A stretch of 35,925 bases of DNA from Blastocatellia bacterium. GTDB taxonomy: Bacteria; Acidobacteriota; Blastocatellia; Pyrinomonadales; Pyrinomonadaceae. Below, one piece after another: positions 33,574 through 35,925 of the stretch (the stretch's first letter is position 1; each line of letters opens with the position of its first letter). The stretch spans positions 1-35,925 of the forward strand of contig JACCVY010000062.1 in the NCBI GenBank assembly GCA_013697915.1, in the 5' to 3' direction. A program made the position numbers and the translations under genes. Under the pieces are notes generated by a model. It was not told the DNA's origin and searched no databases. It worked only from the letters and a program-made list of their open reading frames with translations.

Positions 33574-35190
33574 ATGTCTGTTCCGTTTATCGAAGAGAAT
33601 GATCAAACCCGCGCGCGCGAGGAGCATCTCGAAGCTCTGCGTGCGCTTGTCGGCAACGTCTATCCCAACAAATTCGAACGCAGTGAAGTGGTTGAGCCCG
33701 GCAAGGAAGATACGATTTCGGCGGTCCTGGAAAAGTATCGTGCTTATGAACCAGAGGCACCTGAGGGTGCTCGCCCGGCCGCGGAAGCAATCGAGCTTGC
33801 CAATCAACAACTGAACACAATCACGGTTCGCCTGGCCGGTCGCATCGCGTCGCCGCCGCGCGTGATGGGCAAAGCCGCGTTTGTGCATTTATCCGACGGT
33901 TCCAGCCGGTTGCAGATTTATGCGAAGCGCGCGGACTTTGCCGGCGTGCGCAACGATGCCAGTGACGGCGAAGTCGACGGCTGGGAACTCTTCAATTTAC
34001 TCGATCACGGCGACTTCATTGGCGTTGAAGGTTATTTGTTCATTACAAAAACCGGCGAGCTTTCCGTGCACGTGCAGAAAATACAGTTTCTGTCGAAAGC
34101 ACTTCTGCCACTCCCAGATAAGATGCACGGCATTCACGATCCGGAAATTAGACAACGGCAGCGTTACGCGGATTTGATTGCCGGCAGTCTGAAACTGGAA
34201 CGCGAGGAGGATGAACTTACCCCGCGCGAAGTCTTCGAGCGGCGCGCAAAAGTCGTCGCCGAAATGCGCCGCATCCTTGAAGACCACGGCTACATTGAAG
34301 TCGAGACGCCAATGCTGACGCCGCTGGCCACTGGCGCCGCTGCGCGTCCTTTCAAGACGCATCACAACGCGCTCGACATCGATCTCTACGCGCGCATCGC
34401 GCCGGAACTTTATCTAAAGAGGTTGCTGGTAGGTGGTTTCGAGAAAGTCTATGAACTCAATCGCAACTTCCGCAACGAAGGCGTTTCAACGCGTCACAAT
34501 CCGGAGTTTACGATGCTCGAGTTCTATTGGGCATATGCAGATGTGAACCAGATGATGGACTTCTGCGAAAGCATGCTGCGCGCGGTGGTGTTTAAGGCAT
34601 TGGGCCATACGCATGTAAAGTTTGGTGACTATGACCTCGATTTTTCGCAGCCTTTCGAACGCATCTCGATGAGGAACAGCGTTGCCAAAGTTGTAGGCGA
34701 TGCGAATGTAACCGCCGATAATCTTTTGGAGTTGTTTGAGCAGCATGTCGAGCCAAAGCTTATTCAACCGACGCTGATTTCCGACTTTCCCAAACCGATC
34801 TCGCCTCTCTCGAAAGCCTCTCCGGCTGATCCAACCGTTGCCGAGCGTTTCGAGTTGTATATTGCCGGCATGGAATGCGCGAACGGCTTTTCCGAGTTGA
34901 ACGATCCAGTGGAGCAGTACGAAAGATTCAAGGATCAGATGACGCAACGCGAACGTGGCGATGAAGAAGCGATGGTGATGGACGAAGACTACATCCGCGC
35001 GTTGTCGTACGGCATGCCGCCCGCCGCCGGAATTGGTATCGGCATCGATCGGTTCGTAATGCTGGTCACCAACCGCCAATCAATCCGCGACGTAATTCTG
35101 TTTCCACATTTGCGGCCGGAACGAAGGCCAAGCGAAACGACTGAATCCGACAATCAGGACGCAGAAGCGTTACCGCCTTCAGGCGGCTAG
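33574..35190 (+). CDS. lysS: Lysine--tRNA ligase, class II
   Basis: Lysyl-tRNA synthetase (EC 6.1.1.6), 538 aa from the ATG at 33574 (an ATG at 33565 would add three residues). The N-terminal OB-fold anticodon-binding domain (about 60-165, ending [10 protein letters not shown]) precedes the class II core: motif 1 in [19 protein letters not shown], motif 2 [19 protein letters not shown] (about 308-326), and motif 3 [13 protein letters not shown] (about 487-499). The open frame back to 33397 only translates the REP-like pair. No ribosome binding site is seen; the leader begins inside the repeat. The last 20 residues, after [10 protein letters not shown], are unconserved and the final ALPPSGG is coded by a hairpin repeat that includes the stop. 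The intron region follows immediately. Confidence 0.94.
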
Positions 35191-35201
35191 CCCGAAGGGC
35201 T
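35173..35201. repeat. Tandem hairpins at the lysS stop and intron junction
   Basis: CCGCC-TTCA-GGCGG (35173-35186) and AGCCC-GAA-GGGCT (35189-35201) stand side by side and include the lysS stop codon. The group II intron 3' boundary is 3 bp further. Hairpins are typical landing sites for some group II introns (established for group IIC). Confidence 0.7.
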
Positions 35202-35246
35202 GAATAGGGGTAGGGAGAGGCGATTGGTTTCGCTCCCCCTCCCTCC

Positions 35247-35279
35247 GAACCGGACTGGCGGATCTCCCGCATCCGGCTC
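35247..35279 (-). ncRNA. Group II intron domain V (outer intron)
   Basis: A 33-nt hairpin starting GAGCCGGATG and ending CCGGTTC on the minus strand, with the conserved AGC triad near its 5' end and a GNRA-like loop (GAGA). It lies about 15 nt after the reverse transcriptase stop, as expected for domain V following the domain IV-encoded protein. Confidence 0.85.
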
Positions 35280-35293
35280 TCCAGTTGGTGGTC

Positions 35294-35800
35294 TTACCTC
35301 CGAGAGGATTGACAGAGCCCCTTGTGGGTTGTGACCAGCGAAAACAACCCCTGCGTGGCAAAGTAGGCATTCGGCCAGCGCTGATGATCTGCGCCACGTC
35401 CGCGACCAGCCAGGCCATGACGTTTGCGGAGAATACTGCGCAGCCGCATCCGTACCCAACTGTCCTGCCGATTGAACGTGGTTTCATGACTATGTTTGAA
35501 ATATTCAAACCAGCCACGCAAGGTGCGGTTCACGCCCGCGATGATTACAGTCAAGGCGTGCCCGTTACTCCGCCGCGTCTGGCGACCAATAGTGGCTCGC
35601 ATTTTCTTGATGCTCTTCGCCCGTGGCCATCTGTAGCCACGCTCGAAGTGGTAACCAAGAAAGTCGAAGCCGCCACCTATCGTCGCATCCACGATGCGAG
35701 TCTTCTCCGGATGCAGAGTCAGGCCGTTTACCGCCGTCCATTCCTGCACCCACGAAAGTGCTTGTCGCGCTTCCGCTGCCGTTCGGCACAGCATCACGAG
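35294..35800 (-). CDS. ltrA: Group II intron reverse transcriptase/maturase, C-terminal part
   Basis: The C-terminal 168 residues of an intron-encoded protein. They start with LVMLCRTAAEARQAL, the sequence that normally follows the YADD catalytic motif, continue through RT blocks 6-7 (GLTLHPEKTRIVD, FDFLGYHF) and a maturase-specific domain (GVNRTLRGWFEYFKHS, QDSWVRMRLRSILRKRHG), and end ATQGLFSLVTTHKGLCQSSRR followed by TAA. No endonuclease domain follows. The YADD itself and all upstream RT blocks are missing here, replaced at 35801 by the end of another intron. The open frame continues through that intron end to 35866 without RT similarity. If the inner intron splices out, the full protein could be restored; otherwise it is dead. 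Confidence 0.85.
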   Translation of the reverse strand, partial: LVMLCRTAAEARQALSWVQEWTAVNGLTLHPEKTRIVDATIGGGFDFLGYHFERGYRWPRAKSIKKMRATIGRQTRRSNGHALTVIIAGVNRTLRGWFEYFKHSHETTFNRQDSWVRMRLRSILRKRHGLAGRGRGADHQRWPNAYFATQGLFSLVTTHKGLCQSSRR

Positions 35801-35839
35801 GTGAGTAGCCCGCAGGAATCTCACCCGCAGGCTCTCGCA

Positions 35840-35873
35840 GAACCGTACGTGAACGTCTCCGCTCATACGGCTC
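35840..35873 (-). ncRNA. Group II intron domain V (inner intron)
   Basis: A 34-nt hairpin beginning GAGCCGTATG and ending TACGGTTC on the minus strand with a GAGA tetraloop, the standard domain V size and form. It differs in several stem positions from the outer intron's domain V, so the two are distinct intron lineages. Confidence 0.88.
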
Positions 35874-35925
35874 CCACCAGGGAACCACGCCTCACGCCCA
35901 TCTGCCAGTGCGCAAACAGCTTGGC
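35863..35925 (-). CDS. Group II intron-encoded protein, C-terminal end (inner intron)
   Basis: Twenty codons and a TGA stop are visible. They encode AKLFAHWQMGVRRGSLVGAV, which matches the typical C-terminus of group II reverse transcriptase/maturases (a LFxHWxxG motif and a GAV ending). The stop lies inside domain V (GCCGTATGA), an overlap common in bacterial introns. The rest of the gene lies beyond the right edge. No reverse transcriptase domain can be seen, so assignment rests on the motif and its position directly before domain V. Confidence 0.72.
   Translation of the reverse strand, partial: AKLFAHWQMGVRRGSLVGAV

Follow-up and report, generated by a model that had tools for sequence, protein, structure and literature searches.

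The window considered here, i.e., the whole analysed stretch of 35,925 nt, which is the entire contig C168 of the 271-contig host genome assembly, very probably ends in a twintron, in which a putatively mobile RmInt1-like (class D, as judged by its relatives) group II intron is guided to the YADD-coding DNA of other group II introns. This reading rests on sequence comparisons, and the nested arrangement in this genome is itself inferred from two contigs.

The window stops at a contig break within the repeated inner intron. As the first-pass annotation had proposed, two group II intron 3' ends lie here on the minus strand: the RF00029 model (domains V/VI) matched at 35875-35800 (60.9 bits) and at 35281-35204 (52.4 bits), exceeding the gathering score in either case. 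The terminal 126 nt (35800..35925, minus strand) represent the 3' end of the inner intron, comprising the last part of its RT ORF, domains V (35873-35840) and VI, and the intron boundary at 35800; besides RF00029, this assignment is supported by a match to a 3' model derived from full-length YADD-homing introns (E=2.5e-25) and by identity to the start of another contig, C249. The final 20 codons of the inner RT/maturase, together with its stop (AKLFAHWQMGVRRGSLVGAV; 35863..35925, minus strand), were recognized by comparing the translation with the tails of related inner introns, e.g., PKLFVHWQMGIFPGAG of the L093 locus. These codons extend into domain V; hence, the inner intron is not ORF-less. 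Between the two intron ends, the C-terminal half of the outer RT/maturase is encoded (FVMLCRTAAEARQ..., 168 aa; 35294..35799, minus strand). A GIIM maturase domain was identified in it (E=4e-15), and its match to the group II RT model TIGR04416 spans positions 217-353, precisely the portion beyond YADD, as had been claimed from the letters alone. It is followed by domains V and VI of the outer intron (35204..35281, minus strand), ending in ...CCCCTAT/TCAGCC, where the slash marks the junction, and by the 3' flank (35173..35203, minus strand), half of a REP-like palindromic repeat, TCAGCCCTTCGGGCTAGCCGCCTGAAGGCGG.

The junction of the inner intron with the outer RT lies at 35800/35799 (CTCACC/TCGTG) in codon phase 1, so that the insertion is situated one nucleotide past the second Asp codon, directly after YADD. 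The initial claim of a frame restored after YADD stands, but its placement was off by one base and one phase, with LVMLC wrongly starting at a codon boundary.

The N-terminal counterpart of the outer RT is located on the minus strand of contig C248, where the 5' end of an outer intron is followed by an RT ORF ending in GVEMVRYADD, then by T/GTGCGCCACGAG, 123 nt of intron, and the contig end. This RT half corresponds to TIGR04416 positions 2-216, and rejoining its GATGACT/GTGCGCC junction with the window restores the codon TTC, yielding YADD-FVMLC. The family 5' HMM matched the inner 5' piece, which opens with GTGCGCC, with E=5.5e-20 over the first 123 nt; a GUGYG-type 5' end is present, and the remainder of domain I is absent from the assembly of this genome. 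The lack of an RT N-half ending in YADD ahead of the inner intron had been named as the observation that would refute nesting; such a half, followed by a group II 5' end, does exist on C248. Together with the window sequence it bears out the nesting of the inner intron in the YADD-coding DNA of a different group II intron, although the linkage is inferred.

The best relative of both halves is the same complete nest, L106 (58% for C248 and 57% for the window; the next-best relatives reach 51% and 35%, respectively). The outer flanks, ...CGGCTGGCCTA on C248 and TCAGCCCTTCGGG... in the window, abut to form a REP-like repeat, also found uninterrupted at C248:2053-2076 as an empty-site form. The shared best relative, the rebuilt repeat, and the family-model matches jointly suggest that C248, the inner intron, and the window constitute one twintron, with the physical linkage inferred from sequence. 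No contig of this assembly bridges the halves: collapse of the repeat, as inferred, left out the central ~1.6 kb of the inner intron. The window and C249, the two contigs with this 3' end in common, share exactly 127 nt, and by inference this fits the expectation for a k-mer graph. The twintron criterion that both introns be complete is fulfilled in relatives such as L106, L029, and L057. As to the surroundings, the outer intron was inserted inside one REP-like repeat unit, which in the window adjoins lysS at its 3' end; REP-like palindromes occur at 35173-35203 of the window and at C248 2053-2110, the latter beside a gene (C248 1551-2021) which resembles, by eye only, a REP-associated transposase.

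A second host RT was detected in the same genome. Contig C249 starts with the identical 126-nt intron end, which gives way to the half of another RT that follows FADD (FVCGF...); the same intron end thus meets the second RT at the homologous base. This half shares 82% identity with the RT of a group II intron that is intact on C142 and has nothing inserted at its own FADD site, TTCGCAGATGATT/TT; a second, contig-edge copy of the C142 intron lies on C31. The RVT_1 search of this genome produced matches on C142 and C248 only, so the 5' half of the C249 host is also missing from the assembly.

One could argue that the intron merely adjoins a truncated RT remnant, or that the contig end is an assembly chimera, and that no nesting exists here. 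The missing middle of the inner intron and the halves left unbridged by any contig leave room for this, but very little: the junction is exact and in phase on either side, the same intron end joins the second RT on C249 at the homologous base, a complete nest (L106) combines the same type of outer RT with a related inner intron, and the outer flanks rebuild the REP-like repeat. The twintron remains by far the better supported reading.

The same arrangement, sought in other genomes as initially advised, turned out to be widespread, with dozens of cases. A single scan of GTDB genomes for exact TWYGCNGAYGAYT followed by GTGCGCC returned at least 114 loci, in at least 84 of which an RT N-half runs into the site and is cut at exactly this base. 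Among the matches listed, 77 of the 84 RT-interrupting loci were also matched by the intron 5' HMM; the other seven contained too little intron sequence or were divergent. The hosts, among the matches listed, represent about a dozen phyla; the host groups include Bacillota, Actinomycetota, Planctomycetota, Acidobacteriota, Bacteroidota, Pseudomonadota, Nitrospirota, and Methanosarcina, in the last of which some loci (L066, L071, L080, and L093) were recognized as YADD nests. Being conditioned on YADD-T/GTGCGCC, the scan gives no fraction of class D introns residing at YADD and, by requiring T at position -1, excludes class D hosts by construction; in a sample not selected by target, roughly a third of class D introns were at YADD. 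Where nests are complete, most inner introns measure 1.84-1.88 kb and encode an RT of roughly 420-460 aa. The host frame resumes in phase in 23 of 23 complete cases among the matches listed, and both host halves are long and open in 13 of the 23.

Closer to the host genome, a search with the intron-end DNA in 119 genomes of the family revealed no close relative. In 396 Acidobacteriota genomes, the motif followed by GTGYGCC with any base allowed at -1 gave about 110 matches, mostly due to chance; among the matches listed, only the locus of this genome matched the intron HMM. Another acidobacteriotal nest, in G266, was identified through an IEP search. Viral contigs contributed only a few additional copies.

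The complete Pelosinus fermentans JBW45 genome has identical intron copies in two unrelated RTs; Blautia parvula is another species whose complete genome contains a nest. Enterococcus avium ATCC 14025 carries identical full-length copies in two RT classes and, in a third class, a contig-chunk copy identical over the 54 available nt. Identical introns in different RT classes of one genome would point to recent movement, mobility itself being inferred. In a tree of 113 RT N-halves, all inner RTs grouped in one clade (100/100) together with relatives using other targets, and the 59 hosts were placed outside it. These data bear on the possibility that the inner intron was inherited with each outer one, as an old twintron, rather than having homed repeatedly. 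In certain genomes, e.g., Singulisphaera, a single nest does recur many times, always in the same outer RT, as such descent would have it. Still, it is hardly credible as a general explanation, in view of the identical inner introns in different RT classes of Pelosinus and E. avium, the hosts scattered over the RT tree against the single separate clade of inner RTs, and the empty homologous site on C142. Hence, repeated homing into YADD-coding DNA is retained as the preferred account.

The target can be deduced from the guides of the relatives. Across an alignment of 53 introns, the sequence read by the RmInt1-type guides is TAYGCNGAYGAYT, with the insertion point directly behind it. RmInt1 pairs with IBS2 at -13..-9 and IBS1 at -7..-1, with one linker base at -8 (PMC3123198). 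All 53 relatives pair in exactly this register; the copy of this genome is too short to show the guides, and its EBS1 and EBS2, absent from the assembly, are inferred from the relatives. The 13-nt RmInt1 frame coincides exactly with TAY GCN GAY GAY T. With few exceptions, EBS2 is GCGTA and EBS1 is AGTCGTT, so that a guide G, which can pair with either C or T, stands opposite the degenerate Y at -11 (52 of 53 introns), -5 (53 of 53), and -2 (52 of 53), the T/C counts in the targets being 31/22, 32/21, and 16/37, respectively. The fourfold-degenerate N (C18 G15 T12 A8) coincides with the linker base, which separates IBS1 from IBS2 and is unpaired. Within one genome, a single intron is found at sites of different spelling, in Pelosinus at TATGCTGACGACT and TACGCTGACGATT, and in E. 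avium at TACGCCGATGACT and TACGCAGACGATT. It is the DNA that is recognized and not RT genes as such, since the same 13-mer is occupied in a phage terminase TerL gene (L088 4381-5280), a SusD gene (L045 225-1124), and an Asp/Glu racemase gene (L089 179-607), in the last case out of frame.

Whether the guides are adapted to codon degeneracy is less certain. They may simply match the C-ending codons (GAC, TAC) by Watson-Crick pairing and tolerate T by accident; G-C is the stronger pair, the near-invariance of the guides implies few independent origins, and a G-U pair at -7 occurs commonly in the class. Such a lack of adaptation is a serious but rather unlikely option: T outnumbers C in the targets at -11 and -5, and the guide is still G. 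At degenerate sites, T is faced by guide G in 78 of 79 cases in the YADD-homing introns, whereas sister introns with other targets face T with A in six of seven, a comparison based on a small sample and uncorrected for relatedness. Whatever the cause, the guide is degenerate in effect.

The assignment of the inner intron to class D rests on the relatives, as the IEP of this genome is represented only by its 20-aa tail. The IEPs of the relatives form one clade (100/100), including L162, which has the EBS1 of RmInt1; RmInt1 itself was not placed by name. The IEPs of the relatives, at about 415-440 aa, end just before or in domain V, which would leave no room for an endonuclease domain, as judged by length without a dedicated search.

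Based on these features, the inner intron would spread by reverse splicing into DNA, followed by reverse transcription by its own RT. Splicing from the host transcript would restore the outer RT, and restoration of the host frame fits inner-first splicing, the order being inferred without RNA data. Mobility of the outer intron would then depend on splicing of the inner one; the control of the outer intron by inner splicing, suggested in the first-pass annotation, hence remains an inference.

The inner intron's own gene would be partly protected from such homing. In 39 of 39 cases, the YADD of the inner RT is followed by A, G, or V, so that the base at -1 is G, which mismatches the A of EBS1; the hosts have F or C after YADD, i.e., T at -1. 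An origin of this G through selection for self-protection was considered and is weakened by the sister introns with other targets, whose own -1 base is G (16) or A (7) and never T; it was probably inherited. The protection is also leaky, given that L166, whose EBS1 is unchanged, interrupts a class D RT at YADD-G, and that a -1 mismatch lowers the excision of RmInt1 only to 75%. The suggestion that class D hosts are never invaded was rejected due to L166 and L081. In the latter (Desulfosporosinus), an intron with EBS1 TGTCGTT (A to U), which itself encodes FADD-G, interrupts another YADD-homing intron at YADD-G. We tentatively suggest, with less than even confidence, that this lineage represents hyperparasites of retroelements, with guides evolved to read the motif across nearly all codon spellings, the own gene spared by one base, and variants re-aiming at the spared form. 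The L081 locus (Desulfosporosinus metallidurans, minus strand, 3850-780) displays a four-level nest, in which a host RT contains the inner intron, the YADD-G of the inner intron contains the re-aimed one, and domain V of the re-aimed intron is split by yet another intron.

Among the closest known systems is RmInt1 of Sinorhizobium meliloti (class D/IIB3; PMC3123198, PMC4238363, PMC5894124), which appears to belong to the same IEP clade, as judged by the relatives, has the same guide geometry, and also lives in another mobile element. Its target is, however, an IS630-family transposase gene instead of the YADD DNA of other group II introns, and G at the degenerate codon positions belongs to the YADD-homing introns. 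Poor splicing of RmInt1 restrains its host IS (PMC4238363), which, by analogy, may be the closest functional parallel to the control of the outer intron. TeI3/TeI4 of Thermosynechococcus elongatus likewise feature identical inner introns in diverged outer ones at one conserved site of the outer ORF and proliferation through targeting another intron, but that inner intron is ORF-less and lies between two start codons of closely related outer introns in one species, without conserved-motif or codon-degenerate targeting (PMC2882425). According to Dai & Zimmerly 2003, as cited in PMC4424553, the nests of Methanosarcina acetivorans also arose by repeated site-specific homing into intron ORFs; the span of phyla and RT classes of the YADD nests exceeds one genus. 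The Porphyridium plastid mat1f twintrons share one inner intron in two different outer ones at the same site; their outer introns are, in contrast, related to each other, the site is in domain IV, and the outer ORF is a truncated remnant and not a phase-restored YADD (PMC4476101).

Thus, twintrons and proliferation into conserved sites of other mobile elements are already known (PMC2882425, PMC4476101), as is homing into intron ORFs in Methanosarcina (PMC4424553). No description of YADD as a target, of the degenerate guides, or of their breadth was found in the papers covered, which do not include Dai & Zimmerly 2003; on that basis, codon-degenerate YADD targeting and its breadth are apparently undescribed. 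The oversight may be explained by published intron pipelines, in which twintrons are dropped or missed (PMC4028801, PMC8919778), and by plasmid records, where YADD nests appear as split ltrA genes.

The RT of an active retroelement must keep its catalytic motif, which makes the landing site almost impossible to lose, and an intron reading YADD DNA regardless of synonymous differences has a home in most genomes with another group II intron. Such an insertion switches the RT of the host intron off unless the inner one splices. YADD homing renders retroelement hyperparasitism and self/non-self targeting testable by ordinary retrohoming assays, and the guides are a natural example of degenerate guide design.

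Targeting of short coding motifs may be a wider habit of class D introns. Sister introns in L175 and L177 (start 1446) target CTCGACGAAG with EBS1 CTTCGTT, and the sister intron in L162 (start 2431) targets TTTATCGACGAAA with EBS1 TTTCGTC. At ~1463 of L168 (S. meliloti pMl3), a class D intron with the AGTCGTT guide directly follows an apparent intron 3' end (CGCCACTCACC/GTGTGCC), which is apparently a tandem insertion at one site.
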